NCBI RefSeq assembly: GCF_021654775.1
Contig: NZ_AP025343.1
Span: 6,353,501 to 6,417,500, forward strand
DNA length: 64,000 nt
Reading direction: 5' to 3'
From: Paenibacillus azoreducens
Lineage (GTDB): Bacteria; Bacillota; Bacilli; Paenibacillales; Paenibacillaceae
Shown: in pieces, positions 29,519 through 45,028 of the stretch
How positions within the stretch are numbered: position 1 is the stretch's first letter
How the letters are laid out: each line of letters starts with the position of its first letter
Notes under the pieces: model-generated
Told to the model about the DNA's origin: nothing
Database searches by the model: none
The model's input: the letters and a program-made list of their open reading frames with translations, nothing else
Made by a program: the position numbers and the translations under genes

Positions 29519-29522
29519 AGAA

Positions 29523-30555: not shown

Positions 30556-30891
30556 ATGGATCAAAATCAATCTCTATACATTCCCTTAGGCGTCAAGCCG
30601 GAAGCCGAGTGGTTTCCCGGCTTCGGTAAACATCAGCTTGGTCAATCATCTATTGGCTCACTTGCTGCTGTTGTAGTCGCCCTATGTCTTTGGCTGATGG
30701 GCAGAAGTGTTCCGCTCGCAGTGGTTACTTTCCTGATCGGCGTGTCCGCCTCTGTGATGATGACAACCAAGGACCGTCATAATTTGTCTGTACTGGATCA
30801 GATCATGTTTATGATTCGTTATGCCAAGTCTCAGAAGTTCTACCCTTATCGCAGTTTAAACACTTGGACTACGACGGAATACAAGCTATGA
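30556..30891 (+). CDS. VirB3/PrgI-like membrane protein
   Basis: 111 residues from the ATG at 30556 behind AAAAAGGAGG. After a short N-terminus (SLYIPLGVKPEAEWFPGFG) there are two adjacent transmembrane helices (about 32-52 and 54-72) and a basic C-terminal tail ending KFYPYRSLNTWTTTEYKL. Small proteins with this two-helix hairpin near the N-terminus are VirB3 or PrgI type partners of VirB4. The stop overlaps the next start (ATGA). The assignment rests on topology and context. Confidence 0.6.
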   Translation: MDQNQSLYIPLGVKPEAEWFPGFGKHQLGQSSIGSLAAVVVALCLWLMGRSVPLAVVTFLIGVSASVMMTTKDRHNLSVLDQIMFMIRYAKSQKFYPYRSLNTWTTTEYKL

Positions 30892-31334
30892 TGCACACAG
30901 AAACCGCCACCGCCTTACTGATACAGGGGATGTTATTTTCTACGCTTCTTCTTATTGCTAGTTTTCACGACATTCGCACACGCGAGGTCCCCAATTGGGT
31001 GCCGATCGCCTTAATCGGCTCAGGCTTGCTCCAGTTCCAGCTTGTTCCGGCTCTTATCGGCCTCGTATCTACCAGCTTGCCTTATCTGCTTGCCGCTGTT
31101 ACCACAAACGGAAAAATCGGCGGCGGCGATATTACGCTGATGGCAGCCTGTGGTTTTGTTTTGGGCCCAGTCGGCGGCCTTCTGCAAAGCATTATCGGGT
31201 TAACATTCGTTTTGCTCTTCGCGATAGGAATCGTTTATCGTCATGGGCTTAAAAAAACCAAGCAAACCGCCTTCCCGCTCGTTCCTTTTCTTACGGCAGG
31301 CGGTTTGCTCACGTTTACATTACTTTATTTGTGA
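30888..31334 (+). CDS. A24 prepilin peptidase (TadV/CpaA-like)
   Basis: 148 residues from the ATG at 30888, overlapping the previous stop. The protein is a compact polytopic peptidase with both catalytic aspartates visible: SFHDIRTREVPNW (segment 1-2 loop) and GKIGGGDITLMA (the G-x-G-D motif). This is the short Tad type without the methylase domain. It would remove basic leader peptides from prepilin-like proteins. Within this element the candidates are the DUF6133, DUF4320 and TadE-like proteins. It opens the run of Tad-type genes. Confidence 0.9.
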   Translation: MMHTETATALLIQGMLFSTLLLIASFHDIRTREVPNWVPIALIGSGLLQFQLVPALIGLVSTSLPYLLAAVTTNGKIGGGDITLMAACGFVLGPVGGLLQSIIGLTFVLLFAIGIVYRHGLKKTKQTAFPLVPFLTAGGLLTFTLLYL

Positions 31335-31359
31335 TTGACGAAGGAGGATATTCCAATTC

Positions 31360-32100
31360 ATGAATTGGCTAAAAAACCGTACCGTTCTGGGGATAAGTTG
31401 CATAATCTTATCCCTTATCCTTTGTCTCGGCATTGCGCCGCTGTTGAATCGAAGCGCCAGTGAAAAAGTCGCGATTGCCCGCATCGTTCAAGAGGTAGCC
31501 GAGGGCGAGGCCATCACTGCCGCTCATGTAGAGACCGTGTATGTAGGAGCCTACAATCTGCCCACTGACGTGCTAAAATCCGAAGACCAAGTTGTCGGAC
31601 AGTATGCCGCGGCGGATCTGAAAGTTGGAGATTATTTGCTCCCTTCCAAATTGTCAGCCTCTCCCCTCGATGCTTATTTAACCCGTCTGGACGGACAGAG
31701 ACAAGCCTTGTCGGTTACAATCAAAAGCCTCGCAGCGGGCCTTTCCGGCAAGCTTCAACCTGGTGATATTGTTAGCTTATTCGCCACCGACTACGGCGAC
31801 TTTCGCACAACCACGTTGCCCCCGGAACTGCAATACGTAGAAGTGCTGTCGGTTACGACCAGCAGTGGTCTGGATGCCCAAACCACAGCAAACGATCAAA
31901 ACGAAAGAGAACTGCCTTCCACACTTACCTTGCTCGTCCGGCCTGAGCAAGCCGTATTGCTGACCGACATTGAAAGCAAAGGAAAACTACATGCGGCATT
32001 GGTTTATCGGGGAGATGCGGCAACAACACAGTTATTCCTCGATAAACAAGAAGCGTATTTCTCGTCCAAATCACAACCGGAGGATGTTGCTCATGAGTAA
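31360..32100 (+). CDS. CpaB/RcpC-like pilus assembly protein with SAF domain
   Basis: 246 residues. One N-terminal membrane anchor (about 9-29) is followed by an extracellular SAF domain (IVQEVAEGEAITAAHVETVYVGAYNLP ... VGDYLLPSKL), then a CpaB-type C-terminal domain (ALSVTIKSLAAGLSGKLQPGDIVSLFAT). CpaB/RcpC proteins are part of Tad/Flp pilus systems and interact with the cell wall or the pilus base. It lies 25 bp after the prepilin peptidase gene and overlaps the next gene. The family is clear. Confidence 0.88.
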   Translation: MNWLKNRTVLGISCIILSLILCLGIAPLLNRSASEKVAIARIVQEVAEGEAITAAHVETVYVGAYNLPTDVLKSEDQVVGQYAAADLKVGDYLLPSKLSASPLDAYLTRLDGQRQALSVTIKSLAAGLSGKLQPGDIVSLFATDYGDFRTTTLPPELQYVEVLSVTTSSGLDAQTTANDQNERELPSTLTLLVRPEQAVLLTDIESKGKLHAALVYRGDAATTQLFLDKQEAYFSSKSQPEDVAHE

Positions 32101-32941
32101 TAAACCGCTTATCGTCCTATGGGGCAGTCCGAATAGCGGTAAAACCATCGCTACCGTCAAATTAGCGCAAGCTCTGGCCGCTCACCGTAAAAATGTACTC
32201 GTCATATTCAGTGACGCCCTCTGCCCTTCCGTTGCCGCTATCGTACCTGGGCAAGCTAATGAGCAGAAATCGCTTGGTGAGCTGCTCAGTCTGCCTTCGC
32301 TTGCCCAGGAAGATCTGCTCCACTATTCGCTTGCGTTAAAAGGCTCGCCCCATCTCGCCTTTCTCGGTTATAAAAAAGGCGATCATGTCTTTTCTTATGC
32401 TGACTATAGCCGCGAGCGAGCCGTCGACTTGCTGACTCTGGCCAGACATACTGCCGATGTTGTGCTGGTAGACTGCGCCAGTTATGTGTCTTCTTATTTG
32501 CTTTCGACCGTGGCGCTGGAGTTAGCCGACGTAATATTCCGATTTCACAACTGCGATCTCAAAAGCCTGATGTTTTACGCCTCCTATTTGCCGTTATTGT
32601 CCGATGCCCGATTTCAGCATGCGGAGACGATTCCGATTTTGTCCAATGTCAAGCCGGGACAAGATAACCGGGCATATAGCCAAGTTGTCGGGGGAATCCA
32701 ATTCCTTCTGCCGCACGTCGCAGCGCTGGAACAACAATCCCTCGAAGCACGACTCATGGACCCGCTTCCGCCCGGCAAGGACGCGACTCTTTATCAGGAA
32801 GGCATCTCCCACATGATGAGGTTGATCATCCCCGAGGACGTACAGAAGTCACATAAGAGTACCGCGGCAGCTACGAGCAAAGCGTCTGTCGCTCCATGGT
32901 TCAGAAAGCAGCTTGAACTTTGGCGAGGTGATCGAAAATGA
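32093..32941 (+). CDS. CpaE/MinD-like P-loop ATPase of the Tad module
   Basis: 282 residues from the ATG at 32093 (CGGAGG upstream, overlap of 8 bp with the CpaB-like gene). Walker A is LWGSPNSGKTIATVKLA (about residues 8-24), with a normal Lys-Thr. A Walker B-like DVVLVDCASYVSSYLL follows at about residue 125. In Tad systems CpaE/TadZ places the secretion machine at the membrane or pole. A second, degenerate ATPase of similar size ends the element's transfer region. The C-terminal 20 residues are basic and Trp-rich. Confidence 0.8.
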   Translation: MSNKPLIVLWGSPNSGKTIATVKLAQALAAHRKNVLVIFSDALCPSVAAIVPGQANEQKSLGELLSLPSLAQEDLLHYSLALKGSPHLAFLGYKKGDHVFSYADYSRERAVDLLTLARHTADVVLVDCASYVSSYLLSTVALELADVIFRFHNCDLKSLMFYASYLPLLSDARFQHAETIPILSNVKPGQDNRAYSQVVGGIQFLLPHVAALEQQSLEARLMDPLPPGKDATLYQEGISHMMRLIIPEDVQKSHKSTAAATSKASVAPWFRKQLELWRGDRK

Positions 32942-34278
32942 ATCAATCCGCACTCTATTTCTCTAGCCAGTCCAAGCCTTTTAGTGAAGTGTTGATAGAG
33001 GTGCAAGCTTACCTCTCCAGCAAATACGCGACTTTGCTCAGTAGTCATCAGGTAGAACAGAAGCAGCAGATTATCGCCTATATCAGTCAATACTTGACCG
33101 ATCACCGGCTGCACGTGCCTGGCCTAGCTTTTGATGAGCTAATCGACCGTTTGTATGCGGAAATGGTCGAGTATTCGTTTTTGACACGCTATTTATTCGC
33201 GAGTGATGTGGAAGAGATCAACATTAACGGCTATAACGACGTGAAAATCAGTTACACGAATGGCGCTATCCTGCCTGCTGATGAACAATTTGCTTCCCCT
33301 GAACACGCGATCAATGTCATTAGGCGTTTGCTGCACCAATCCGGTATGATTCTCGACTACTCGCAGCCCATCGTTCGCGGACACTTGGCCAACAATATTC
33401 GCATTACCGTTTTCGGCATGCCGATCACGGATAAGGACAAGGGCATCGCCGCTTCCATTCGAATCGTCAACCCACAAAAACTGGCGCGGGAAGATTTTAT
33501 CCACAGCGGTACAGCCACCGGTGAAATGCTGGACTTTCTCAGCCTATGCCTGCGATACGGTCTTTCGATCTGCGTAACCGGAGCAACCGGCAGCGGCAAG
33601 ACGACCCTTATGAGCTGGCTATTGTCAACGATTCCTTATGACAAGCGAATCTTTACGATTGAAAACGGCACTCGCGAGTTTGACCTGGTGATGACGGACG
33701 GGGAAGGGCACGTCCTGAACAACGTGGTGCATACAGTGACACGATCCAGTGAAGACCCTCGTCAAAACATCGACCAAGAAAAATTGTTAGAGTATGCCTT
33801 GACTGCCAACCCCGATGTAATTTGTGTAGGTGAGATGAAATCTGCCGAAGCATTTGCTGCACAGGAAGCAGCCCGTACCGGACATACGGTCATTACGACA
33901 ACCCACGCCAATTCCTGTCTCGCCACCTATTACCGAATGGTGACACTTTGCACACAAAAATACGAAATGAACGATACAACACTGTACAATCTGGTTACTG
34001 AAGCATTTCCGATTGTTCTGTTTGTCAAAAAACTGGAGGATAATGTCCGTCGCATCATGGAAATCACCGAATGCCGCATTCATTCTGACGGTACGCGTGA
34101 GGTGGTTCCTTTATACCGATTCGCCGTCCACTCTACACGGGAAGTCTGCGGGCAAATTCGTATCGAAGGTGACTTCGAAAAAGTAAATGACATCTCACCC
34201 GGTTTGCAGAAACGTCTATTGGAAAATGGCTTGCCGCTATCCATGTTGCAACAATTAAGAGGGGGCGATAGCACATGA
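32938..34278 (+). CDS. CpaF/TadA-type secretion ATPase (VirB11 superfamily)
   Basis: 446 residues, ATG overlapping the previous stop. The N-terminal domain (about 70-190) contains FASDVEEININGYNDVKI. The ATPase domain has Walker A TGATGSGKTTLMSWLL (about residues 218-233), the Asp box, TRSSEDPRQNIDQEKLL, the Walker B-like PDVICVGEMKSAEAFAA and the His box GHTVITTTHA. It would power pilin-like subunit extrusion together with TadB/TadC, and could also serve as the VirB11 of the secretion channel, since no other VirB11 is present. The family is certain. Confidence 0.93.
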   Translation: MNQSALYFSSQSKPFSEVLIEVQAYLSSKYATLLSSHQVEQKQQIIAYISQYLTDHRLHVPGLAFDELIDRLYAEMVEYSFLTRYLFASDVEEININGYNDVKISYTNGAILPADEQFASPEHAINVIRRLLHQSGMILDYSQPIVRGHLANNIRITVFGMPITDKDKGIAASIRIVNPQKLAREDFIHSGTATGEMLDFLSLCLRYGLSICVTGATGSGKTTLMSWLLSTIPYDKRIFTIENGTREFDLVMTDGEGHVLNNVVHTVTRSSEDPRQNIDQEKLLEYALTANPDVICVGEMKSAEAFAAQEAARTGHTVITTTHANSCLATYYRMVTLCTQKYEMNDTTLYNLVTEAFPIVLFVKKLEDNVRRIMEITECRIHSDGTREVVPLYRFAVHSTREVCGQIRIEGDFEKVNDISPGLQKRLLENGLPLSMLQQLRGGDST

Positions 34279-35213
34279 TGGTGTTGCTCCTGCTTTCCTT
34301 TGTTGGCTTATCCGCTGGAAGCCTGATATTACTGAGCCTGACTCCCCGTTCGTTAATGGAAGCTTTATCGGAGTTCTTGCAACGGAGGCAGATGCGCAGG
34401 CAGCCGATCGCCGAGCAAATTCGGCGTGTTCAGCGACCGAAGAAATTGAAGGGCTGGCGCGCCACCATTGTCGAGGCGACCACGATCTTACATCAAATCG
34501 GACACGAACAGCGTACAGGTTTCCTTTTCGCCCTTTCCTTGATGCTGGCGATAGGCGGCGCTCTACTCGCCCTGATACTGAACAACATTTGGCTTTTGCC
34601 CGTCCTTGCAGGCGGGTTTGCCATGTCGCCTTTTTGGATCGTGCTATTTCGTGCAACGTTCTACAAAAAGCGGCTGCATGACGAATTGGAAACCGCATTA
34701 TCCGTTATTACAACATCTTATCTGCGCAGCGAGAATATTCTAGCGGCGGTCGAGGAGAATTTGCCGTATCTGAATCCGCCCGTATCCGATGTGTTTCAAG
34801 CATTTTTAGCGGAGTCCAAACTGATTCATACGAATCTTCATCTGGCGCTCACAAGACTGCGTGGTCGCATTCATAATAGTGTCTTTCAGGAATGGTGCGA
34901 CGCATTGATGGCCTGTCAGGAGGATCGCGCGCTGAAAACGACACTCATGCCCATTGTCGCCAAGCTATCCGACATGCGCGTCGTTTCGGCTGAACTGGAC
35001 GCAGCCCTCTATGAACCACTCAAAGAGTTTATTACGATGGCTCTGCTGCTGATCGGCAACATTCCACTGCTCTATTTCTTAAATCGGGATTGGTATCGCG
35101 CTCTGACGCAAACGACGCCAGGGCATGCTGTGTTGGCATTGTGCGCGCTAGCAATCTTGGTATCTTTGGCTGCCGTCATTCGGCTGACGCGGCCACTCGA
35201 TTATCGAAGATAG
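34275..35213 (+). CDS. TadB-like inner-membrane pilus assembly protein
   Basis: 312 residues, start overlapping the CpaF stop. Layout: an N-terminal helix, a basic cytoplasmic part (RRQMRRQPIAEQIRRVQRPKK), two central helices (about 85-125), a T2SSF-type cytoplasmic domain (ELETALSVITTSYLRSENILAAVEENL), and two helices at the C-terminus (about 255-300). This is the arrangement of TadB and GspF proteins, which bind the CpaF ATPase. It pairs with the TadC-like gene 1 kb downstream. In standard tad operons the two are adjacent; here three small genes separate them. Confidence 0.85.
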   Translation: MMVLLLLSFVGLSAGSLILLSLTPRSLMEALSEFLQRRQMRRQPIAEQIRRVQRPKKLKGWRATIVEATTILHQIGHEQRTGFLFALSLMLAIGGALLALILNNIWLLPVLAGGFAMSPFWIVLFRATFYKKRLHDELETALSVITTSYLRSENILAAVEENLPYLNPPVSDVFQAFLAESKLIHTNLHLALTRLRGRIHNSVFQEWCDALMACQEDRALKTTLMPIVAKLSDMRVVSAELDAALYEPLKEFITMALLLIGNIPLLYFLNRDWYRALTQTTPGHAVLALCALAILVSLAAVIRLTRPLDYRR

Positions 35214-35224: not shown

Positions 35225-35476
35225 ATGAACAACAAAGACGTCGCTTCCTTGCTGGGAGAGTTGATAGAGGCGGATAAGGATGAGTGGGTCAGTTTGGAAA
35301 GGCTGCTTAATCGGTACGGCGTGGTCGGCTTTTTCCAAAAGTTAGATGAGAGAATGCCCTTGTCAACGGAAAGCTTGGAAAAACTTCAAGCGCTTCAATC
35401 ATTGATAGACATCCTGTCAAAAAGGTATGTGGAACTTGGGGAGGGAAACGGATGTGAGCCAGCTCCACACCAATGA
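35225..35476 (+). CDS. Small hypothetical protein between TadB and RadC
   Basis: 83 residues from the ATG at 35225 behind AGGAGG. A soluble, acidic helical protein (NNKDVASLLGELIEADKDEWVSLERLLNRYGVVGFFQKL). No family recognised. It overlaps the RadC-like gene by 23 bp, so the two are probably co-translated and may act together. Confidence 0.6.
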   Translation: MNNKDVASLLGELIEADKDEWVSLERLLNRYGVVGFFQKLDERMPLSTESLEKLQALQSLIDILSKRYVELGEGNGCEPAPHQ

Positions 35477-36053
35477 GAAGTATGTGGCTGACTTTGTCCA
35501 TTCCATTCACAAATTAACCCGCATCCCATTGCACAAGCTGGAGGAATACGGCAAGGTAAACAACCTCATCAACGTACTGGAACATCCTCGCGTATTGGAG
35601 CCGACCACTGCACAATTTCAAAAAATTGAGCAACTCAATGCGTTCCTTCGGGCCTACCGCGTGGTCAAGTGGGAGGAGGAAAACGCCAGACAGTGTATTC
35701 GCTCACCACAACATGCTGGCGACTATTTTTCCACGCTTCTCGATGGCGTTCGGGACCGGGAACGGTTTATGGTTGCCTTCTTGAACAACAGCAATCGCAT
35801 CATCGAGACCCGCACGATTTCGGAAGGCGGCATCGACCAAGCGCCTGTCTACCCCCGTGATGTCCTAAAAGCCGCCTTGAATTGCGACTGCTCTGCTGTG
35901 ATTTTTGCGCATAATCATCCGGGCGGCACCCTCTCCCCTTCTCCCGAAGACATACAGTTAACGCGACGGATGGTCGATATTTTCGAGCCCTTAAACATCC
36001 AAGTACTCGATCATATCATCATCGCGGGCAATGGCTACCTGTCCATGGCTTAA
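35454..36053 (+). CDS. RadC/JAMM-domain protein
   Basis: About 199 residues from the GTG at 35454 (GGGAGG at the right distance); an ATG at 35427 would add nine residues but lies before that site. A helical N-terminal part leads into the RadC/MPN domain with FMVAFLNNSNRIIETRTISEGG, and the metal site FAHNHPGGTLSPSPEDIQLT (about residues 146-165) with both His and the Asp. RadC-like proteins are common in mobile elements; their activity is still disputed (proposed DNA repair or isopeptidase). Its place within a pilus operon is unusual. Confidence 0.9.
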   Translation: MSQLHTNEKYVADFVHSIHKLTRIPLHKLEEYGKVNNLINVLEHPRVLEPTTAQFQKIEQLNAFLRAYRVVKWEEENARQCIRSPQHAGDYFSTLLDGVRDRERFMVAFLNNSNRIIETRTISEGGIDQAPVYPRDVLKAALNCDCSAVIFAHNHPGGTLSPSPEDIQLTRRMVDIFEPLNIQVLDHIIIAGNGYLSMA

Positions 36054-36207: not shown

Positions 36208-37080
36208 ATGACTGAACTTCTTGTGGGCTTCAGTCTATTTTTTGCAGCCGGAGCCTATTTTTTATTAGCCGATCTATTGCAAGTCTCCACCCGTGCCAAC
36301 ACAAAAGCGATTCTGCAGGTCGCCAAAATTGGAAAAGGGAAATCATCCTCCCTGCATGTCCTGCTCTTTCGCCTCTCCGCTTGGCTAGCCGAACACTTGA
36401 AGCTCAGTGACTACTACAAACGAAAAACAGCGGCTACGCTTCGTTCAGCCGGCATCACCCTCACGCCCGAAGTGTTTCTGTCGCAAGCGATTGTGAAAGC
36501 AAGTCTAATCTTTGGTGCCGGAATGGCCCTTCTTCCCTTTCTACCGCTGCTATCCCCGCTCTTGATCTTTCTGGCTATCGCCTTCTTTTTTAAAGACTAC
36601 CGCTCCGCCGATGAAGCGGTACGAAAAAAGCGTGAGCAAATCGAATCCGAACTTCCCCGATTCGTCGCAACCGTATCGCAAGAATTGAAGGCCTCACGCG
36701 ATGTCCTGCGGATACTCGAGACGTATGCGAACCATGCTGGAGAGAGTTTACAGCATGAACTACAAATGACGATCGCTGATATGAAAAGCGGTAGTCTGGA
36801 AACCGCGCTACTCCGACTGGAGACCCGGATCGGCAGCACGATGCTGTCTGATATGGTACGTGGCTTGTTGGCCGTGTTGCGCGGTGATCAGGGTGTGGTC
36901 TATTTTGAAATGCTAGCGCATGATTTCAAGCTGGCCGAGATCCAACGACTCAAACGGATCGCGATGAAGCGCCCCGGCAAAATCCGCAAATATTCCTTCC
37001 TAATGTTAGCCTGCTTCATGCTTACCTACATGGTCATTATCGGCATGGAGATTATGAAGGCTGTTGGTGAGTTGTTTTAA
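36208..37080 (+). CDS. TadC-like inner-membrane pilus assembly protein
   Basis: 290 residues, start after AAAGGAGG. An N-terminal helix (about 5-25), two central helices (about 90-130), a T2SSF domain (QIESELPRFVATVSQELKASRDVLRIL, about 145-170, and GSTMLSDMVRGLLAVLRGDQG), then a C-terminal helix (about 265-285). The layout matches TadC, the partner of TadB in the inner-membrane platform. The last residues before the C-terminal helix are very basic (RLKRIAMKRPGKIRKYSF). Confidence 0.82.
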   Translation: MTELLVGFSLFFAAGAYFLLADLLQVSTRANTKAILQVAKIGKGKSSSLHVLLFRLSAWLAEHLKLSDYYKRKTAATLRSAGITLTPEVFLSQAIVKASLIFGAGMALLPFLPLLSPLLIFLAIAFFFKDYRSADEAVRKKREQIESELPRFVATVSQELKASRDVLRILETYANHAGESLQHELQMTIADMKSGSLETALLRLETRIGSTMLSDMVRGLLAVLRGDQGVVYFEMLAHDFKLAEIQRLKRIAMKRPGKIRKYSFLMLACFMLTYMVIIGMEIMKAVGELF

Positions 37081-37104: not shown

Positions 37105-37500
37105 ATGCTGTATCGAGCTCTCCGCTCCCGCCGCGGCGAAGGGTATATCGATGTTACCGTCATTGTGCTCGCAGCCATGCTTTGCATCGGACTTGCCGTT
37201 CAAGTTTTTCCGGTATTTATGGCCCAGCAAAAGCTGGATACGTTCGCGAGTGAATTGGCCCGGGAAGCAGAGATTTCTGGCAGAGTCGGCCCTGAAACCA
37301 CACAGCGAGCCAATGAGTTGCAACTGCAAACCGGGCTGTCTCCCAACATCGCATGGAGCAAAACCGGCCCAATTCAAATCAACCAAGAGGTAACAGTCAC
37401 ACTGCGCACGACAGCAGATATCGGTTTTGGAAGCTTTGGATCATTTCCCATCGAGCTTTCAGCTACTGCGAAAGGAAAGTCCGAGGTGTACTGGAAATGA
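37105..37500 (+). CDS. DUF4320-like pseudopilin
   Basis: 131 residues behind AAAGGAGG. A short basic leader with RRGEGYID (residues 9-16) precedes one hydrophobic helix (about 17-37), and the rest is a predicted extracellular beta-rich domain. This is the form of a pilin or pseudopilin, and DUF4320 proteins hold this place in Firmicutes elements with Tad-type genes. The same RRGEG-aromatic-aliphatic-D motif stands before the helix of the DUF6133 protein in this element. The stop codon overlaps the next start (ATGA). Confidence 0.8.
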   Translation: MLYRALRSRRGEGYIDVTVIVLAAMLCIGLAVQVFPVFMAQQKLDTFASELAREAEISGRVGPETTQRANELQLQTGLSPNIAWSKTGPIQINQEVTVTLRTTADIGFGSFGSFPIELSATAKGKSEVYWK

Positions 37501-38033
37501 TGCGATTCTGGAAAAATTGTTCCGGCAGCGGGTATCCGCTTGCGATTACAATTGTGCTGGCAATTCTGCTGCTATCTTGCTGCATATTTGAATATTTCCG
37601 GCTATCCATCATCGCAGCAGAGGTAAGGATCGCCACACAAAGTGCCATTATATCCGTAGCAACAGAAAATTACAACCTGGTCTACAACGGCTTGCGGCAA
37701 AGCTATTCAGGCGGGTATACTCGAGCCGACAATCAATGGCAAGAATCTTGGACAACAGGTGACATTTACAACCGCATTAGCCGGGATTTAGGACTGGTTC
37801 AAGAAGGGAGCAGATATATGCGGAAATCCGCTGACTACACCGAGTACAGCATCTCTGAACTTGAAGTCGATATCATGAATACGCCGTTCGCTCCTGCGTC
37901 ACCCGATTCCATTCAACAATTTACCGCCGAGGCACAGCTACAGCTTTCCGTGCCGCTATCTTTCGGCTGGGGCCATCTGCCTCCCATGAAAGCGAGTTTG
38001 AAGGTTCAGGCTGTGTATCGACCACGATTTTGA
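37497..38033 (+). CDS. TadE-like pseudopilin
   Basis: 178 residues from the ATG at 37497, overlapping the previous stop. A short leader (MMRFWKNCSGSGYP) precedes a hydrophobic helix (about 15-40), then an extracellular domain with IAAEVRIATQSAIISVATENYNLVYN, as is common for TadE/TadF proteins, which have few conserved residues. It completes a set of pseudopilin-like candidates. The class is likely from size, topology and coupling to DUF4320. Confidence 0.65.
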   Translation: MMRFWKNCSGSGYPLAITIVLAILLLSCCIFEYFRLSIIAAEVRIATQSAIISVATENYNLVYNGLRQSYSGGYTRADNQWQESWTTGDIYNRISRDLGLVQEGSRYMRKSADYTEYSISELEVDIMNTPFAPASPDSIQQFTAEAQLQLSVPLSFGWGHLPPMKASLKVQAVYRPRF

Positions 38034-38160: not shown

Positions 38161-38763
38161 GTGAAACGTAAAATATGGGTATGGACGAGTTGCATTATTC
38201 TTTTAGGTGCCATTGGTTTGTGGGCGTTCAGCAACGATGGAGGCCAATCTTCCGAGGTTGAAACGATCGTGCCTCCCTCTCCCGATTCTGCTCTTGTGAC
38301 GATACCCGATATTGATCCCGAACCATCTTCTAAGACCGACACAAATTCGGAATCACCTGGGCAGAACCCCGAAAAAGACGGTTCTGCTTCAAGTCATATT
38401 CCCGAAGCTTCGCAAAATACAGAACTAAGTATTTCAGAACCACCTGGCCTGCAACCGGAGAAAGAAGTTACAGAAGTCGAAGTCCCCCTTACCGATCCGA
38501 CACCAACGCCAAAGCCGACAGAGCCGCCAAAGCCTAAGCCCAAAGAAACAGATAAACCACAGTCTCCTGACACTCCGCCTACTTATGAGGAGAAGGAAAC
38601 TCAGCCCAACAAGCCGCAGGATGAGCCGAAAGCTGGTAACAAAAACGAAAATGGAAAAGTCCTCGTGCCAGGGTTCGGTTGGGTTGAGCAAGGAGGCCCT
38701 AGTCAAGGTAGCAAAAGTGAATCAGATGGTGATTGGAATAAACAAATAGGTACAATGGATTAA
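38161..38763 (+). CDS. DUF6550-like membrane-anchored proline-rich protein
   Basis: 200 residues, GTG start with AAAAGGAG upstream. One N-terminal transmembrane helix (about 6-23) is followed by a long extracellular stretch rich in Pro, Glu, Ser and Lys (including PTPTPKPTEPPKPKPK). A short conserved C-terminal motif reads VLVPGFGWVEQGG. This pattern is that of DUF6550 proteins of Firmicutes conjugative elements. The disordered region could span the cell wall, and the C-terminal motif could bind a partner at the surface (inference). Confidence 0.75.
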   Translation: MKRKIWVWTSCIILLGAIGLWAFSNDGGQSSEVETIVPPSPDSALVTIPDIDPEPSSKTDTNSESPGQNPEKDGSASSHIPEASQNTELSISEPPGLQPEKEVTEVEVPLTDPTPTPKPTEPPKPKPKETDKPQSPDTPPTYEEKETQPNKPQDEPKAGNKNENGKVLVPGFGWVEQGGPSQGSKSESDGDWNKQIGTMD

Positions 38764-38777: not shown

Positions 38778-38805
38778 AGAGGTACAGGTAATCACCTGTA
38801 CCTCT
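38778..38805 (+). terminator. Strong hairpin (terminator or attenuator)
   Basis: A perfect 12 bp stem (AGAGGTACAGGT with ACCTGTACCTCT, loop AATC) followed by TTGCTTT. It lies right after the DUF6550-like gene and just before the ribosome site of the next one. With only a weak T run it may attenuate instead of ending transcription. Confidence 0.6.
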
Positions 38806-38826: not shown

Positions 38827-40557
38827 TTGAAACGTATCCTCATATCGGTTCTAACTTTATTGGTCATGGTTTCTTCCCTCTGTTCCCCTATTTATGCAAA
38901 CGGCGACGGGAATATTGACAATGGCGGAGGGGACATGGGATCAGGAACATCTCAAAATAAATGGTCACCCGGTTATGACGGAGTACGGATTACCATAATT
39001 CGCTCTAGTGACAAAGCAGTGGTTTCCACCCCTATTGACTATACCAACAAGACATTGCCTAGAGACATCATACACTTTGGGAAGACTAGCAAGATTCAAT
39101 ATCTAAATCACAGCCCATTGAAGCCCTCTACCGATATCTACCGATATAAAATCCCTGCATCGCCAATGCCACGTATAATCAGCTCTGGCGAAACCGTTAC
39201 CGACATCGAGGTCATCAAAAAATATTTCACTTCTGAAGGCGCAGTAAAAATGGTAGCCAACGATACTGGCATCGACTTCGATTCGTTAACTAACGGAAAC
39301 TATAAGCTGTTGCTGGAGCCCATTGCGTATCTAACCTTTCAAGGCGTATTCATGTCGATGACTGCTCATGAAGCGGCTTTGTACGATCAAATCCTTAGTG
39401 GCGGTCTACGTTCCAAGATGGTGAGCCTCACCCATCAAAATCTGCCTTTGTCCATGTTTCTTGAAACGCCTGACCTCGATTTTCCCGCATGGAGCGGCTC
39501 ACGCAGAGGCAGAGTGAGCAACGACCAGATTATCTCATCCTTAGGACTTGGTATTGTCCGTTTTAACGGTGCGCCAACTACACCTCCACCACCGGTCCAG
39601 ACAAGCGTGCAGTACCGTACCAATACCGATGTCATCACCTCCGTAAGGCTCTCCACTTCCGCCGCGATTACTCCCGAATCCCCAGCCAGCGTATCGTTTC
39701 ATATTTTGGGTAGCCGTTATACGGTTAGCAATATTGTCATTCCAGAGGGGGACAGTCAACTGGTTTGGGTGAAATGGCGCACGCCAAGCCAGCCACAAAC
39801 ACTCTCCATTCAGGTAAGTTCCTCCAAGGGTTCATTAAGTGCATCTTCTATCACCGCCTCCATTGTTGATTTAAATCAGAATACTCCCCCTGATCCGAAG
39901 GCCACAGATCGAAATGACAGTTTTCGGCAACCGTCCATCCCTAGCTATGCAGATAAAACGTCCGCTTCATGGGGCATATGGTCTGCACACTGGCATGAAT
40001 ATTGGGTTTGGATTCCCAAGTGGCGTTGGATCAGCACGGGACCCGATTCCGGTTATTGGGTAGACAACGGACATTGGGAGGATCAGGGCTGGTGGGAATA
40101 TACTTGGACAGGTTATCGTGCCTCGCTTTCTGCCACACAATCTATTTCCCCTGATGCCAAGTCTCCCAGTACAGTTTCCGACCGTATCAAATCCGGATAC
40201 GGAATTGAAATGGACGTATCGGCTGACGTGCCTTCAAATGCGCCCAGCAGCCACTTAACCGGCGCGCAAAATGCCGTTTCCTATTTTCCTGAGTTTAACT
40301 ATCGAACATATTGGCGATTGCATGATTCGAAAACGAGTGGATTAAAGGCCGACTTTGGGCTAAAACCGAATGACTTCTCCACTTATCAAAGTCGGGTACA
40401 CTTTACGCCTATTTGGTATCCCGACGGTTTCTATACTCCAATTACTCGTGTGTTGGACGCCTGGACACCGGACGGGATGCTTACCTTGCAGCTTCAAAGT
40501 GCGATCACGATTTCCGGCAACTTGTTTTCCGATTGGCATATTTCACCACTAAAATAA
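38827..40557 (+). CDS. Secreted surface protein of the transfer region
   Basis: 576 residues from the TTG at 38827 (GGGAGGAG upstream; the ATG at 38806 lies before the site). A signal peptide (LLVMVSSLCSPIYA, cleavage near residue 25) is followed by a Gly/Asp/Asn-rich segment, a middle domain, an Ig-like or beta-sandwich region (about 265-345, VSFHILGSRYTVSNIVIPEGD) and a Trp/Gly-rich segment (WSAHWHEYWVWIPKWRW, about 385-430). No wall-anchor motif is visible. I do not know a family name. It may act in mating-pair contact at the donor surface (inference). Confidence 0.7.
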   Translation: MKRILISVLTLLVMVSSLCSPIYANGDGNIDNGGGDMGSGTSQNKWSPGYDGVRITIIRSSDKAVVSTPIDYTNKTLPRDIIHFGKTSKIQYLNHSPLKPSTDIYRYKIPASPMPRIISSGETVTDIEVIKKYFTSEGAVKMVANDTGIDFDSLTNGNYKLLLEPIAYLTFQGVFMSMTAHEAALYDQILSGGLRSKMVSLTHQNLPLSMFLETPDLDFPAWSGSRRGRVSNDQIISSLGLGIVRFNGAPTTPPPPVQTSVQYRTNTDVITSVRLSTSAAITPESPASVSFHILGSRYTVSNIVIPEGDSQLVWVKWRTPSQPQTLSIQVSSSKGSLSASSITASIVDLNQNTPPDPKATDRNDSFRQPSIPSYADKTSASWGIWSAHWHEYWVWIPKWRWISTGPDSGYWVDNGHWEDQGWWEYTWTGYRASLSATQSISPDAKSPSTVSDRIKSGYGIEMDVSADVPSNAPSSHLTGAQNAVSYFPEFNYRTYWRLHDSKTSGLKADFGLKPNDFSTYQSRVHFTPIWYPDGFYTPITRVLDAWTPDGMLTLQLQSAITISGNLFSDWHISPLK

Positions 40558-40578
40558 CGAAAGGATGGTGCTGCTTTT

Positions 40579-41259
40579 ATGCTGATACCGATCCTCATCC
40601 TGCTCTTCTGCGTCATAGGCGGAGGAGCTGTTCTATTTTTTCTCCGAACCGGCAAACGACGGTCGCAATTGACCATCGACGCGGCCGCGCAAACAGCGCA
40701 ACAATTCGTCAACGTTCAAGATATTCAAGGCCATTTCTTGTATACGTTGGACGGCTGGGTACTATCTTATCTTCGCATCTTTCCGATCAGCCTTGACCTG
40801 TTAAGCCTATCAGAGAAACGAATGCTCATCCGCAAGCTAACCGCTGAGCTTTCTTCCATTCGATTCCCCTTTAAATTTCTGGCTGTAAGCCGCCCCGTCG
40901 ATATTTCTCCCCTAATCACAGATCTTTCCTCCCTGCTCCCCTCTGCCGATTCAGCACAAAAAGAATTGCTGCGTCAAGAATTGATGGAGATGAACTCATT
41001 AGCGCTATCCGGTGAAGTGGTAGAGCGACAATTTTATTTGTCACTCTGGCAACGGCAAGAGCAAGGCGGTGAACGCGAACTACTAGACAAGGCAAAGCGA
41101 CTTGTCCAGCACTTTGAGGATGCTGGGGTTCAGGCTCAACTCCTCAAGCAACAGGAGATTGTTCGGCTATGCAATCTGGTAAACAACCCAGCATACAGTC
41201 ATCTGGACCAAGCTGACCCAGAGGAAGCAATACCATTTTTATTTTACAGGGAGGGATAA
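40579..41259 (+). CDS. VirB4 N-terminal-like domain as a separate membrane protein
   Basis: 226 residues. One N-terminal helix (about 2-22) is followed by a soluble domain: FVNVQDIQGHFLYTLDGWVLSYLRIFPISLDLLSLSEKRML. The pattern (domain opens with a strand on V-x-V-x-D/G, then a TLDGWVLSYLRI beta hairpin, then a helix after LLS) resembles the N-terminal domain of VirB4/TraC ATPases. The VirB4 ATPase encoded 0.85 kb downstream seems to lack this part. So VirB4, like VirD4, may be split in this element. The homology is by eye only. Confidence 0.55.
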   Translation: MLIPILILLFCVIGGGAVLFFLRTGKRRSQLTIDAAAQTAQQFVNVQDIQGHFLYTLDGWVLSYLRIFPISLDLLSLSEKRMLIRKLTAELSSIRFPFKFLAVSRPVDISPLITDLSSLLPSADSAQKELLRQELMEMNSLALSGEVVERQFYLSLWQRQEQGGERELLDKAKRLVQHFEDAGVQAQLLKQQEIVRLCNLVNNPAYSHLDQADPEEAIPFLFYREG

Positions 41260-41262
41260 CAC

Positions 41263-42090
41263 ATGGACCCAACTACTGCCAAGCTGTTAGCACAACTTGC
41301 CGTGAAAGTGGCAGCCGATGAAGAAGCACGTAAACGACTCCTCCTTCTCATCGCAATTCCTGCCGCCACGCTATTACTTTTGATTGCTATGATTTTGCAA
41401 CTGTTAACTTCACCAATCGAATCCCTCAAGATATTCCTCACTCCCAATGAAACGCCGATTGTAAAGGGATTGCGTTCTGATTACGGATACACACAGTTGT
41501 TACAGAAAGAAGATGACGGTTACTTGGAAAGTAACGGGCAGCAATATGAGGGTGTCGTATTTCAAGACGGTAGCCGTGAGGTCGTGTACTTCAATCAAAT
41601 GGATGCTCGATGGGCAGACAAGCCTTATGGCCCTATCGATACGATCGGTATTGCCGGTTGCGGCCCGACTTCTCTTTCCATCGTTGTCTCCACGCTTCTC
41701 ACTGATCAAACCGTTGATCCGGTCACCATGTCGAAGTGGGCCTACGACAATGGATATTTAGCGGAAGGCACCGGCAGCTACCATAGCCTGATTCCAGACG
41801 GGGCCAAACATTTTGGCTTACAGGTAACAGGCGCAACCGCTAAGGAAAAGCAGACCATCATCGATGCTTTAGCTGCCGGTAAGCTCGTTGTCGCCATTAT
41901 GGGCAAAGGCCATTTCACTTCAACCGGCCATTTTATTGTTCTGCGCGGCGTCACAGAAGATGGACACATTTTAGTCGCTGATCCTGCAAGTAAAAAAAGG
42001 AGCGAGCAAACTTGGGACTTCAATATCATCTTGGCTGAAGCCAGAAAAAATGCCGGTGCAGGCGGACCATTTTGGATTATTCATTCATGA
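41263..42090 (+). CDS. Membrane-anchored C39-like cysteine peptidase
   Basis: 275 residues. An N-terminal transmembrane helix (about 26-46) is followed by an extracellular C39-like domain: YFNQMDARWADKPYG, the catalytic Cys in IAGCGPTSLSIVVSTL (about residues 129-144), then the His in STGHFIVLRGV and the Asp in LVADPASKK. The family includes bacteriocin-type and wall-associated peptidases. In conjugation systems a wall-degrading enzyme (VirB1 or CwlT) opens the peptidoglycan; this protein may hold that position, although it looks like a peptidase and not a muramidase. It lies between the two VirB4 parts. Confidence 0.82.
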   Translation: MDPTTAKLLAQLAVKVAADEEARKRLLLLIAIPAATLLLLIAMILQLLTSPIESLKIFLTPNETPIVKGLRSDYGYTQLLQKEDDGYLESNGQQYEGVVFQDGSREVVYFNQMDARWADKPYGPIDTIGIAGCGPTSLSIVVSTLLTDQTVDPVTMSKWAYDNGYLAEGTGSYHSLIPDGAKHFGLQVTGATAKEKQTIIDALAAGKLVVAIMGKGHFTSTGHFIVLRGVTEDGHILVADPASKKRSEQTWDFNIILAEARKNAGAGGPFWIIHS

Positions 42091-42107
42091 AAGGAGTGGC
42101 AATTCAT

Positions 42108-43919
42108 ATGTCACGAGATACTTCCGTGTCCTCTAATCCCTCTTTGTTGAATGCGATCACACCAATGGGCCTTGAATTCTTACGCACAGGCCTCTCCGTC
42201 GGTGAAGAATCTGCAAAAATGTATGGCGTAATCCAATACCCTCAAAAAGTGGACATTGGTTGGCTCTCCCCTCTTACCAATCTGCCTGCTACTATGGCTG
42301 CCATCGGTTTTCAGCCGATTGACAACAGCGCGTTGATCAACGCCATCTCCAAGTCCATCACCCAAAACCGCAGTCTGGCCGACAGCGCAAAAGACCCGCT
42401 CACCCGACAGCGGGCAGAAAAGGCAGCGGCAGACGGCGAACAAATTATGTTGCAAATCGACCAGAACGGCGAGACAGTTGGTTTGATGAATATGGTTGTC
42501 ATGCCGTTTGCCCAGGAAGAAAAACATTTTACTCGTGCTTGCCGCCGCGTTGAAAATACATTCAGCATGATGCGCTGTAAAATTCGTACGCTCGCTCACC
42601 TACAAAAAGAAAGCTACACTCATTTATCTCCCTTATATCCAGCGCATGAGCAAATTGAACAGGTGCTGAACAAAATTATGCCGATGAGCACCTTCGTCGG
42701 CGGGTTTCCCTTTGCCAGTAGTGGTTTTAATGACGGGACTGGTTATTACTTAGCTAAAGACGCCAGCGGCGGGCTGATTATTGTTGATCTATGGCGGCGC
42801 GGCGGCGATCGAACGAATTCCAACATCGTTGTGATGGGTGTAGCCGGTGTGGGTAAATCGACGGCGGTCAAACATATCGCGCTTAGCGAATATATGAAAG
42901 GAACCAAAATCATTTTTGTGGACCCGGAATCTGAATATAAGGAACTGACTCAGAAGTTAAACGGCGATTGGATTAATGCCGGTGGCGGCATGGGCGGGAA
43001 AATCAATCCGCTGCAAATTCGCCCAGCTCCTCGTGACGAAGAAGACGAGGAGCATCCCCTATATAAGGATGAAGGAAACGGCATGTCGGATATGGCCTTG
43101 CATCTCAAAAATTTGGAGATATTTTTTAATCTTTACATCCCTGATCTTACAATGATGCAAAAAGCCGTTCTCAAGCAATGTTTAATCGAGCTATATCACC
43201 AGTTTCAAATCTCTTGGACAACGGACATCTCTAAACTGACGAGTACGGACTTCCCTACCTTTTCCAATCTCCATGACCTTCTTCAAGCTAAAGAACAGAA
43301 TACAAACGATGAAGTCTATAAAGAATTATCCCTGCTGTTGCACGACATTGCACACGGCGGGGATTCTTTTTTATGGAACGGTCACAGCACCATTCAAACC
43401 CGCAGCCGCTGCATTTGCCTGGACACGCATTCACTGCAAAATACGTCCGACAATATTAAGCGAACGCAATACTTTAATCTGCTGTCCTGGTGCTGGGAAC
43501 AAATGTCGCAAGATCGGAATGAACGGGTACTACTGATCTGTGATGAATCTTACCTTATGATTGACCCGAACGTCCCACAAAGCCTTGTCTTTTTGCGGAA
43601 CGTTGAGAAGAGAGCGCGGAAGTATGAGGCGAGTCTGGCGATCGTCTCTCATAGCGTGGTTGACTTTCTTGCCCCCGAGGTAAAAATGTACGGTCAAGCT
43701 CTGCTCGATATTCCAAGCATCAAAATCCTAATGGGAACCGATGGACAAAATCTCCAAGAAACACGAGAACTATACAATTTAACCGAAGCGGAAGAGGAAT
43801 TGCTTGCCAGTAAAAAACGCGAACACGCCTTACTTATGATCGGCTCCAAACGCATGCACGTCCACTTCGAGATTCCCGAATACAAGTTTGCTTATATGGG
43901 ATCTGCAGGAGGACGATGA
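42108..43919 (+). CDS. VirB4-type conjugation ATPase
   Basis: 603 residues from the ATG at 42108 (AAAGGAG upstream). The N-terminal 220 residues are the middle part of VirB4 proteins. The ATPase follows with GGLIIVDLWRRGGDRTNSNIVV, Walker A GVAGVGKSTAVKH (about residues 245-257), the Walker B region RVLLICDESYLMIDP and SLAIVSHSVVDFL. Standard VirB4 proteins of Gram-positive elements are about 650-830 residues. The missing N-terminal domain seems to be the separate protein at 40579. It would energise channel assembly and substrate transfer at the membrane. Confidence 0.92.
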   Translation: MSRDTSVSSNPSLLNAITPMGLEFLRTGLSVGEESAKMYGVIQYPQKVDIGWLSPLTNLPATMAAIGFQPIDNSALINAISKSITQNRSLADSAKDPLTRQRAEKAAADGEQIMLQIDQNGETVGLMNMVVMPFAQEEKHFTRACRRVENTFSMMRCKIRTLAHLQKESYTHLSPLYPAHEQIEQVLNKIMPMSTFVGGFPFASSGFNDGTGYYLAKDASGGLIIVDLWRRGGDRTNSNIVVMGVAGVGKSTAVKHIALSEYMKGTKIIFVDPESEYKELTQKLNGDWINAGGGMGGKINPLQIRPAPRDEEDEEHPLYKDEGNGMSDMALHLKNLEIFFNLYIPDLTMMQKAVLKQCLIELYHQFQISWTTDISKLTSTDFPTFSNLHDLLQAKEQNTNDEVYKELSLLLHDIAHGGDSFLWNGHSTIQTRSRCICLDTHSLQNTSDNIKRTQYFNLLSWCWEQMSQDRNERVLLICDESYLMIDPNVPQSLVFLRNVEKRARKYEASLAIVSHSVVDFLAPEVKMYGQALLDIPSIKILMGTDGQNLQETRELYNLTEAEEELLASKKREHALLMIGSKRMHVHFEIPEYKFAYMGSAGGR

Positions 43920-43922
43920 AGG

Positions 43923-44012
43923 ATGGATAAAAAGAAGCAACTCATCGAGCTCTTCATTTATATCATCATCGTGATTGTAGGAGCAATCCTATTGATTATG
44001 AAAGAAGGATGA
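43923..44012 (+). CDS. 29-residue single-helix membrane protein
   Basis: ATG just after GGAGGACGATGAAGG. The product is a charged start (MDKKKQLIEL), one transmembrane helix (FIYIIIVIVGAILLIM) and a Lys-Glu end. Its stop overlaps the next gene. The exact fit between two genes, the clean helix and the strong ribosome site support a real small gene. The function is unknown. Confidence 0.6.
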   Translation: MDKKKQLIELFIYIIIVIVGAILLIMKEG

Positions 44013-45028
44013 CCATGATTCTATATTTGACCAGCCATGCAAACGTGAATTTACTGGATCAATTCGAGATGGAGCAGGAAATGCCGGTAAAGAAACTGAT
44101 CGGACAATTTTCGCTCCTCTCCTTTGTGGTCAAGGACATGCGGCACTTTAACCATGTTCGATACATCGCGATTGATCGAAAGGCCATATTGGAATCCGAT
44201 GAAGAAATGATACAGGCCCTTTTATCGTTTCAAACGATGTACGAGATTCGTATCATTGTCATTGCCGAAGGACTGCCGGACAGCAGTCCCTTTCTACAGC
44301 AACTAATTCAAATTAGAATCACGAATGTGGTGACTTCAGAACATATCAAGACAATGCTGGAAGAAATACAGGATTGCTTTTCAGAGCAAGGGATGCAGCG
44401 ATATATTCCTGCTTTTCCCCCTGAACCGGTTAACGAAACAGTGGGTACTTTTCATCCTCATGAAGAAAAATATAGATTTGATTGTAAAAACATACAGATT
44501 GCCGTAGCTGGTAGCGATCGACGGGTAGGCGTTACGACAACAGCAATGAATTTGGTTTTTTGGATTCAAGCACATGGAGGGAATGCCTGTTATTTAGAAG
44601 CCAACACGAGCAAGCATTTGGCTCACATTATCCATCTGTTCGATCCGGAAAAAGTGGGTAACGCTTATGTAATGGAGGGGGCTGATTTTTACTTAACCCC
44701 AGAGTTTGATCGCGATTATAACTTTATTGTGACGGATTGTGGAGTTTTAGGTGAGCCCAGACTACAGGACTCCTTCACAAAAGCAGATGTTCGAGTACTC
44801 TGCGGCTCGGCTATGCCTTATGAACTGCCAGTGTTTTATCGGGCCTTGGAACGCTGTAAAGGCCTTTCTGTATGTGCAGTGGGATTATCCGTAACTGAAA
44901 ATTTAAAGCCTGTTTTGCTTCAAATGCTGAGTCATAACATCCTATTCGGCGATAGCTCCCATGACCTTTTTGATTCAAAGGCTAATCATCAACTCTATTA
45001 TCAGCTTCTTAAATGCTATGTATATTAA
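44009..45028 (+). CDS. CpaE-like protein with degenerate P-loop
   Basis: 339 residues. The N-terminal part (about 1-125) looks like a receiver-like alpha/beta domain, as found in CpaE (MILYLTSHANVNLL ... RIIVIAEGLPDSSPFLQQLI). The C-terminal part is MinD/ParA-like with IAVAGSDRRVGVTTTAMNLVFW (about residues 163-184) and NFIVTDCGVLGEP. The P-loop lacks the usual Gly-Lys pair: the Lys is replaced by Val in GVTTT, so ATP hydrolysis is doubtful. It is the last intact gene of the element. It could locate the apparatus at the membrane without cycling. Confidence 0.75.
   Translation: MTMILYLTSHANVNLLDQFEMEQEMPVKKLIGQFSLLSFVVKDMRHFNHVRYIAIDRKAILESDEEMIQALLSFQTMYEIRIIVIAEGLPDSSPFLQQLIQIRITNVVTSEHIKTMLEEIQDCFSEQGMQRYIPAFPPEPVNETVGTFHPHEEKYRFDCKNIQIAVAGSDRRVGVTTTAMNLVFWIQAHGGNACYLEANTSKHLAHIIHLFDPEKVGNAYVMEGADFYLTPEFDRDYNFIVTDCGVLGEPRLQDSFTKADVRVLCGSAMPYELPVFYRALERCKGLSVCAVGLSVTENLKPVLLQMLSHNILFGDSSHDLFDSKANHQLYYQLLKCYVY

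Follow-up and report, generated by a model that had tools for sequence, protein, structure and literature searches.

How Gram-positive donors grip their recipients during conjugation is an open question. Gram-positive conjugation systems are said to seem free of pili in passages of two papers (PMC11730352, PMC8092201), and part of a third states that Gram-positive donors depend on adhesins (PMC12102498). Here, we analyzed a conjugative-type element of Paenibacillus azoreducens that carries, within a row of type IV secretion system (T4SS) genes, a cassette of genes of the tight adherence (Tad) pilus type that bears on this question. The element spans ~6 kb to 45.03 kb of a 64,000-nucleotide stretch, the window (contig NZ_AP025343.1, positions 6,353,501 to 6,417,500 of the forward strand). 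The original prediction, which was made from the letters of this stretch, proposed either a Tad-like pilus for mating contact beside a standard DNA channel, or a channel in which Tad proteins had replaced some of the parts, and knew of no experimental description of such a machine. Within a literature of partial coverage, this last statement held for the family of the window, for which no recognisable experimental study was found (DUF4320, the family of its candidate pilin, appeared in no paper), but not for related gene mixtures, which are in print for Sulfobacillus and for Cutibacterium acnes plasmids.

For Sulfobacillus thermotolerans plasmids pL15 and pY0017 and the integrated copy in Kr1, the authors name, in the portion of the paper available, a system with homologues of T4SS and type II secretion system components (PMC6803676). 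As in our element, CpaF/TadA, TadB/TadC, a TraG-like VirD4, VirB4 and a transglycosylase are described there on one conjugative-type backbone (PMC6803676), and the gene before VirB4 on pY0017 matches B4N, the N-terminal piece of the window's VirB4 (2e-18). In contrast to the window, the Tad genes of pY0017 form a separate block ~16-19 kb before VirB4, its CpaF is divergent, and the stretch compared held no match to DUF4320 or to SecX, a predicted surface protein of the window. The C. acnes linear plasmids pIMPLE-HL096PA1, p11-79 and pTP-CU411 likewise bear an ATPase in the place of VirB4 and a C40 peptidase beside CpaB-CpaE-CpaF-TadB-TadC-TadE. According to excerpts of the work on them, mass spectrometry detected TadE2 in the surface fraction and scanning electron microscopy revealed appendages, the authors calling the link to conjugation unclear (PMC5696575); pTP-CU411 is reported to be transferable (PMC9119108). 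These plasmids differ from our element in that they are actinobacterial, are arranged in two divergent blocks, and carry a gene for a 64-amino-acid Flp-like protein, a TadG-related gene and an FtsK-type translocase; of their proteins, only CpaB (1e-5) and CpaF (4e-11) matched the window profiles at E<=0.01. The pili of IncI plasmids and of Pseudomonas aeruginosa PAPI-1 are of a class distinct from Tad. Each of these two elements, according to part of one paper, combines a type IV pilus with a T4SS, the pilus aiding liquid mating in IncI and being essential in PAPI-1; both are Gram-negative, and the IncI pilus and T4SS clusters are separate (PMC12857230). Finally, Imam et al. (2011) described Gram-positive tad operons without Flp, in which TadE-like pseudopilins are possibly the structural subunits; conjugation genes are no part of that description in the sections available (PMC3244431).

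The window holds its Tad-type and T4SS genes on one strand, within the single transfer region that the original prediction had noticed. Most of the parts were recognized by Pfam or NCBIfam, with the A24 peptidase, CpaB, CpaF, DUF4320, DUF6550, the C39 peptidase, VirD4, VirB6 and VirB4 scoring above the Pfam cut-off. The interval given for them, 30556-45028, contains the Tad set, VirB3 and VirB4, but not VirD4, VirB6 and the VirB2-like gene, which lie upstream at 23791-29732. The transfer genes are as follows:

20175..21482, + strand: MobL-type relaxase (Pfam MobL 3.4e-15, Relaxase 1.8e-5)
23791..25407, + strand: VirD4-type coupling protein (Pfam T4SS-DNA_transf 2.1e-55, TraG-D_C 1.7e-32)
28682..29518, + strand: VirB6-type channel protein, TrbL_4 (Pfam TrbL_4 5.9e-115, full length)
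29523..29732, + strand: VirB2-like small membrane protein with a putative pilin role (Pfam T4SS_pilin 0.0087, below cut-off)
30556..30891, + strand: VirB3/PrgI-like protein (Pfam PrgI 0.0069, below cut-off)
30864..31334, + strand: A24 prepilin peptidase, TadV-like (Pfam Peptidase_A24 4.8e-13; an alternative ATG start at 30888 is possible)
31360..32100, + strand: CpaB/RcpC (Pfam RcpC 1.1e-16, SAF 1.4e-6)
32084..32941, + strand: CpaE/TadZ-like ATPase of the Tad module (Pfam CbiA 6e-4, below cut-off; its place before CpaF is conserved)
32938..34278, + strand: CpaF-type ATPase (Pfam T2SSE 1.5e-28; directly before the platform genes)
34275..35213, + strand: TadB-like platform protein (no T2SSF match of its own)
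35427..36053, + strand: RadC-like JAB protein between TadB and TadC (Pfam RadC 2.5e-40)
36208..37080, + strand: TadC-like platform protein (no T2SSF match of its own)
37105..37500, + strand: DUF4320 protein, candidate main pilin or pseudopilin (Pfam DUF4320 8.6e-32)
37497..38033, + strand: TadE2, a TadE/F-like minor pseudopilin (conserved beside DUF4320; no Pfam match)
38161..38763, + strand: DUF6550 proline-rich protein with an N-terminal hydrophobic stretch (Pfam DUF6550 1.4e-19)
38827..40557, + strand: SecX, a beta-rich protein predicted to be secreted and surface-located (the model has an N-terminal helix and beta sandwiches)
40579..41259, + strand: B4N, N-terminal piece of a split VirB4 (NCBIfam VirB4_plasma, positions 98-283 of 894; TrsD 3.1e-4)
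41263..42090, + strand: membrane-anchored C39-type peptidase in a VirB1-like place (Pfam Peptidase_C39_2 4.3e-20)
42087..43919, + strand: B4C, ATPase piece of the split VirB4 (NCBIfam VirB4_plasma, positions 294-885 of 894, 5e-103)
44009..45028, + strand: second CpaE-like ATPase (follows VirB4 in 44/47 loci)

From VirB6 at 28682 to the second CpaE-like ATPase, the genes stand in the row in the order listed. The overlap of VirB3 with the A24 peptidase measures 4 to 28 bp according to which start is chosen, so that the T4SS and Tad modules abut there without a gap, and 4-bp overlaps join CpaE to CpaF, CpaF to TadB, and the C39 peptidase to B4C. VirB4 is present as predicted, but in two pieces, since B4N and B4C match consecutive parts of one 894-position NCBIfam model. 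B4C also gave a TraG P-loop/VirB4 Pfam match above cut-off (scanned as 42072-43919) and is the sole match in the host genome; the gene is unsplit in places, a longer single gene being found in G030 and in an Oscillospiraceae plasmid. The components used to recognize a Gram-positive conjugative T4SS, namely VirD4, VirB4, VirB6, VirB3 and a relaxase, are all there, VirB3 scoring below cut-off but keeping its place in the relative G122.

Our preferred reading, which we consider fairly probable from gene content and order, is that the element encodes, next to its Gram-positive T4SS channel, a Flp-less Tad-type pilus that would serve mating contact. The T4SS would consist of the MobL relaxase, VirD4, VirB6, VirB3, the split VirB4, the C39 peptidase in the place of VirB1 and the CpaE-like ATPase, with the pilus system threaded into the row between VirB3 and VirB4. 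The A24 peptidase would trim DUF4320, and perhaps TadE2, while CpaF would drive the TadB-TadC platform in adding DUF4320 subunits to a thin filament that is capped by TadE2 and positioned by CpaB and CpaE. SecX would be a surface or tip-bound adhesive part. The filament would contact, and perhaps pull in, the recipient, and DNA would then cross the VirB/VirD4 channel. Pilus formation, a mating role, an adhesin function of SecX and retraction are all predicted features of this model; in other Tad systems, retraction is driven by CpaF.

Scanning genome contigs with VirB4 as the query yielded 57 loci, from Paenibacillus, a Brevibacillus metagenome-assembled genome and many Clostridia. We counted conservation in the 47 loci with at least 9 kb upstream of VirB4, the other 10 being too short or, in the case of L058, without a VirB4 match. 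Both VirB4 pieces occurred together with DUF4320, TadE2 and SecX in 45/47 loci. Counted singly, DUF4320, TadE2, SecX and B4N each occurred in 45 loci; 44 had TadC and 44 the second CpaE-like ATPase, 42 had TadB and 37 had CpaF; TadC, TadB and CpaF were missing among the 45 loci because the 10-kb flank starts further down the row. Neither of the two Tad-less loci is an intact element: the VirB4 frame of L051 stops at residue 535, 240 bp from the contig end and behind ParAB/RadC genes, and L057 is a remnant of 46 residues. Gene order was collinear in 44 of the 45 scorable loci, with L004 failing solely through two open reading frames (ORFs) cut at the locus edge, and the combination is thus conserved in order across Bacillota, a point that the original prediction had put forward for checking.

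TrbL_4 (VirB6) was found in the genomes of all 13 searchable relatives (14 asked; L002 excluded), ~11-17 kb upstream of VirB4 by coordinate subtraction on the assumption that the contigs correspond, and the Tad genes therefore fall between VirB6 and VirB4. G122 offers a complete second example, running VirD4-VirB6-VirB2-VirB3-A24-CpaB-CpaE-CpaF-TadB-TadC-DUF4320-TadE2-SecX-C39-B4N-B4C-CpaE-like, in which the VirB2-like (4e-23) and VirB3 (3e-28) homologues occupy the equivalent places. In Paenibacillus the C39 gene separates B4N from B4C; in Clostridia it mostly follows B4C. A RadC-like protein is found at the equivalent place in most Paenibacillus loci, as well as in L015 and L031.

This conservation bears on the view that the Tad module is cargo, a pilus for colonisation, adhesion or DNA uptake that the element merely carries along and that plays no role in transfer. 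The Tad loci of the C. acnes plasmids have been interpreted as host-adhesion factors in parts of two papers (PMC3666418, PMC9119108), and DUF4320-Tad clusters occur without VirB4 (see below). Nevertheless, the place of the cassette between VirB3 and VirB4 with overlapping genes, the presence of Tad genes in 45/47 loci and the repeated pairing of the cassette with different T4SS backbones argue against mere carriage, which we regard as quite unlikely.

We measured how far the two modules are separable in 249 genomes drawn from the phylum, using a VirB4 match threshold of E<=1e-20. VirB4 was found in 41 genomes, DUF4320 in 29 and both in 18, a pairing beyond chance (odds ratio 14, Fisher p 2e-9, relatedness ignored). 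In the window's own VirB4 clade (>900 bits, 3 genomes), DUF4320 lay within 5-6 kb at 4/4 places. The 38 DUF4320 places comprised 18 at <=30 kb from VirB4, 9 on other contigs of VirB4-bearing genomes and 11 in genomes without a VirB4 match; in the four of these 11 genomes that were inspected (L086, L089, L090 and L091), DUF4320 stood within a CpaF-TadC cluster. Family profiles found neither VirB4 piece at five Tad-only loci. These loci are not uniform, L090 and L091 being without CpaB, CpaE and TadE2 matches. The cassette was also paired with other VirB4 types, as defined by identity bands: a second type (27-30% identity) accompanied it in the same order in L092 and L098, and a third type in a different order in L096. 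Likewise, two plasmids with pLS20-type conjugation annotations, from Terrisporobacter and C. difficile, bear the cassette including SecX.

Conversely, we looked for Tad genes around a sister group of VirB4 proteins, 30-40% identical to that of the window, which comprises 16 places in 15 genomes and leaves out the partial VirB4 matches G171, G242 and G175 (C84). A T2SSE/CpaF gene was on the contig 14-34 kb from VirB4 at 9/16 places (G034, G229, G195 C21, G035, G104, G070, G239, G043 and G092), the match of G043 being partial, that of G092 holding a stop, and a CpaF at 24-34 kb not necessarily belonging to the same element as VirB4. The candidate description of this group as one without Tad genes was rejected on account of these nine places. 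No CpaF was on the contig at the other 7/16 places, several of which are short (G232, G211, G072, G175 C85, G030, G195 C12 and G102). For four of the seven, picked for their longer stretch, the sequence free of CpaF extended 173 kb upstream and <3 kb downstream of VirB4 in G232, 33 kb upstream and 5 kb downstream in G072, 19 kb upstream and 137 kb downstream in G030, and 20 kb upstream in G195 C12, where two T2SSE genes ~29 kb downstream were taken by score to be of the PilB/PilT type. None of eight Tad-side families (CpaB, CpaE, CpaF, TadB, TadC, DUF4320, TadE2 and SecX) was found at these four loci in the stretches examined. A T4SS of the sister kind can thus probably exist without Tad parts, although a complete element free of them was not found. 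The original prediction had held that a hybrid machine would fail if Tad-type genes were absent from otherwise syntenic elements; they were present in 45/47 loci of the window's own clade, and the sister group was divided between nine places with CpaF and seven with none.

The second CpaE-like ATPase was also near the sister VirB4 in L080, L082 and L084. None of the five Tad-only loci gave a match to it, and most of the four Tad-free stretches end before its place. By position it probably belongs to the T4SS (VirB4) module and not to the Tad block.

These counts also bear on a reading in which CpaF, TadB, TadC and the pseudopilins are parts of the DNA channel itself and form a short pseudopilus that acts as a piston through the thick wall. 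CpaF would take the role of VirB11, and the Tad set would have replaced lost channel parts, for example VirB8 or VirB11. Its attraction lies in the interleaving of the Tad genes in the VirB3-VirB4 stretch, near-fixed in the clade, and in the CpaF genes on contigs at 9/16 sister-VirB4 places; a short pseudopilus is conceivable in a locus without an Flp gene, and PAPI-1 provides a precedent in which, according to part of the paper cited above, the type IV pilus is essential and VirB4 and VirD4 are the sole clear T4SS homologues (PMC12857230). Against it stand the DUF4320-Tad clusters without VirB4 and the sister VirB4 genes without CpaF on the contig in G232, G072, G030 and G195 C12, none of which provides a complete Tad-free element. 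Taken together, the DUF4320-Tad clusters that occur without VirB4, the four sister stretches without a Tad gene and the cassettes with different T4SS backbones favor a pilus beside the channel over replacement of channel parts. Of the two arrangements originally proposed, the first is therefore the one we retain, while the second is weakened by the separability of the modules and is, in our estimate, unlikely.

The CpaF-type ATPase is the sole T2SSE/VirB11-family gene in the window, in agreement with the original prediction, and the host genome has two more, one of them below cut-off. A search of the PDB returned CpaF (8rkd/8rjf) at 83 bits, archaeal 2oap at 82.7 bits and VirB11 at 59 bits. 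In a midpoint-rooted tree of 42 ATPases, in which branches are long and the deep order is uncertain, the window CpaF fell in a clade of 25 rows (support 100/100) whose members come from hybrid loci, from three plasmids of Clostridia and from four Tad-only loci. VirB11 and TrbB formed a separate clade (96/85). CpaF thus did not group with VirB11/TrbB in the tree, which counts against a channel part, and the NCBIfam VirB11 model gave it 140 bits, below the cut-off of 250. The protein is a Tad-family motor by its company and fold family, and less so by a clean place in the tree.

Two further clusters were noted in the host genome. A chromosomal Tad-type locus (L067, 6.07-6.09 Mb), ~0.3 Mb from the element, has its own ATPase with 190 bits to T2SSE. 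A second cluster (L068, 3.138-3.149 Mb), whose genes were named by eye, looks like another pilus-like system. It encodes CpaE/ParA-like proteins, one kinase-like protein, a weak T2SSE-like protein of 635 amino acids that is below cut-off, and several short proteins that begin with a helix.

The platform proteins were linked to their family through intermediates. A Pfam T2SSF scan of the window family gave matches in 0/26 TadB members and weak ones in 2/28 TadC members. Nevertheless, the TadB-like proteins of L112 and L096 match both the window TadB profile (1e-10 and 2e-8) and Pfam T2SSF (2.1e-9 and 1.4e-9), and the TadC-like protein of L108 matches both the window TadC profile (7e-8) and T2SSF (2e-12). 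Among ten such intermediate proteins, 5 scored above the T2SSF cut-off, 1 below it and 4 gave no match. In a separate observation, TadC of the window family was found in four short sequences from human faeces that are labelled 'Bacteriophage sp.' (MT838517, MT835617, MT836988 and MT837158); these may be mislabelled conjugative elements.

DUF4320 is the foremost candidate for the filament subunit. Its N-terminus shows a charged start, a G, an acidic residue at +5 and then a hydrophobic helix in 45/45 aligned clade sequences. A strict prepilin motif scan of our own making (frames of at least 30 amino acids) gave 3 raw matches in the window, of which the sole plausible one was DUF4320 (131 amino acids, D at +5), the other two being frames of 43-45 amino acids outside the element. 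Its AlphaFold model (predicted local distance difference test score 82) shows a long helix at the N-terminus, together with another helix and a sheet of three strands, which suggests the general layout of a pilin. TadE2 keeps the G and has an acid at +5 in 0/46 sequences; in type II and type IV systems, certain tip subunits typically have no acid at this position.

SecX has homologues in 3753 protein clusters at E<=1e-5 among 7993 candidates scored. At loci that combine the two modules, it accompanies the Tad part: SecX and TadC were found on the identical 6 plasmids of 72,556. MOB-suite typed all six of these plasmids as non-mobilizable, although in the three that were read a gene of VirD4 type stands alongside further T4SS genes; given such labels, elements of this kind may be under-counted. 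The constancy of SecX, present with the cassette in 45/47 loci and 6/6 plasmids, would also suit a type II-like secretion route, in which the Tad machinery exports SecX or the C39 peptidase and makes no long filament, and the full prepilin motif is indeed confined to one protein. However, the N-terminal helix in the SecX model is of signal-peptide length, so that the Sec route is possible, SecX was not found in 3/5 Tad-only loci, and TadE2 and CpaB suggest a filament. We consider such a secretion route highly improbable.

Several observations weigh against a Tad-type mating pilus. A canonical Flp major pilin (~60 amino acids, G followed by E at +5 and Y at +6) was not found by the motif scan of window frames, which is why we class the system as Tad-like and Flp-less and not as a canonical Flp/Tad locus. 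L065 retains the +5 acid of DUF4320, whereas L066 and L063, which are more distant, do not have it. A search of the PDB with the DUF4320 model gave nothing that reached E<=0.001, and the matches listed included no pilin. The identities of TadB and TadC appear real but are transitive, running via the intermediates of L112, L096 and L108. With hhalign (five window-family profiles against 44 single sequences), the best E-values against single known sequences were 4e-4 to 5e-3 for TadC and 0.009 for TadB; the top four TadC matches were known TadB/TadC proteins, of seven in the set, and hhalign was rejected as proof of TadC identity since these E-values are unconvincing. SecX is present in only 2/5 Tad-only loci, and no integrase was recognised by recombinase motif in the flanks examined. 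Three further points favor, at the same time, the reading of Tad proteins as channel parts: VirB8 was not recognised by Pfam among the window ORFs scanned; NCBIfam ranked its VirB11 model first for CpaF, ahead of archaellum FlaI (128 bits) and TadA (123 bits, cut-off 373), all under their cut-offs; and canonical TadA (from the host's own chromosome, Rhizobium, Serratia and Moraxella) fell outside the CpaF clade, on the VirB11/TrbB side under midpoint rooting. The position of canonical TadA and the loss of the DUF4320 motif in two distant relatives lowered our confidence slightly, both in the Flp-less pilus and in the wider proposal made below.

The ATPase tree also points beyond the window family. 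pLS20 of Bacillus subtilis and plasmids of Enterococcus and Listeria, which bear T4SSs, resemble our element in having a gene annotated as tadA or CpaF/VirB11, followed by proteins of ~270, 160-245 and 120 amino acids (pLS20, L078 9839-12971; E. faecium pZB18, L069 12683-16106; Listeria pFV3, L070 5429-8602). The ATPases of pLS20, pZB18 and pFV3 formed a clade (100/100) within a 31-row set (96/93) that contains the window CpaF. The 120-amino-acid proteins of pLS20 (E 0.0058) and pZB18 (E 0.065) matched DUF4320 below cut-off, and that of pFV3 gave no match. Among five platform candidates of the pLS20 type, the best E to T2SSF was 0.19, reached by one of them, which does not establish kinship, and hhalign gave no kinship either; the pLS20-type stretches had no profile match to CpaB, TadB, TadC or SecX, and a prepilin motif was not evident in them. 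A reduced form of the cassette, composed of TadA, two platform proteins and a DUF4320-like pseudopilin, may nevertheless be present there. We propose, tentatively and with considerable doubt, that Gram-positive conjugation generally employs Flp-less Tad-type pili as a mating organ that has been overlooked, with the cassette of the window as its full form and the 'VirB11/TadA' proteins of pLS20 and of similar Enterococcus and Listeria plasmids as motors of the reduced form. If true, Gram-positive conjugation would no longer count as pilus-free.

Within the partial literature, four points appear to be new: interleaving in a fixed order across Bacillota, modularity of the gene set, the company of SecX in hybrid loci and the possible reduced form in pLS20. 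The cassette between virB3 and virB4, in an order kept from Paenibacillus to many Clostridia, lets single-gene deletion address how donors grip recipients. A natural experiment is also at hand, since related T4SSs occur with the cassette inside, distant or not found, and the cassette occurs without a T4SS as well.

The remainder of the element and its setting were as follows. The host genome is a single contig of 7.32 Mb, and a locus of Paenibacillus sp. J2TS4 matches the transfer genes at 96% identity over 12.9 kb. On the left, homology with a contig of the relative G265 reaches ~6109; no empty insertion site was seen in G265, whose contig stops soon after the homology. The right edge is near 45030, as homology to L002 ends at 44985, close to the stop codon of the second CpaE-like gene. 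A Mutator-type transposase fragment lies beyond the element edge (regions 5700-6400 and 44985-46200 inspected), and the flanks examined held no direct repeats and no common 14-mer. Within the transfer row, a perfect 12-pair hairpin (38778-38805) lies between DUF6550 and SecX; terminator-like sites numbered 19 against a shuffled mean of 17.9, i.e. no excess. Other features of the element are:

6389-8228: ParA/ParB, in the left part of the element
8713-15306: methylase/helicase-like protein of 2197 amino acids (ArdC-N (weak), Eco57I-type methylase and SNF2/helicase matches combined)
26510-28501: group II intron (reverse transcriptase 26510-28393; catalytic 3' part RF00029 28404-28501)

The group II intron is placed between the VirD4 and VirB6 genes and interrupts neither. 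Reverse transcriptases of the group II intron type were also seen in the related loci L016, L055 and L098, separating two VirB4 parts in L055 and two SecX parts in L098.

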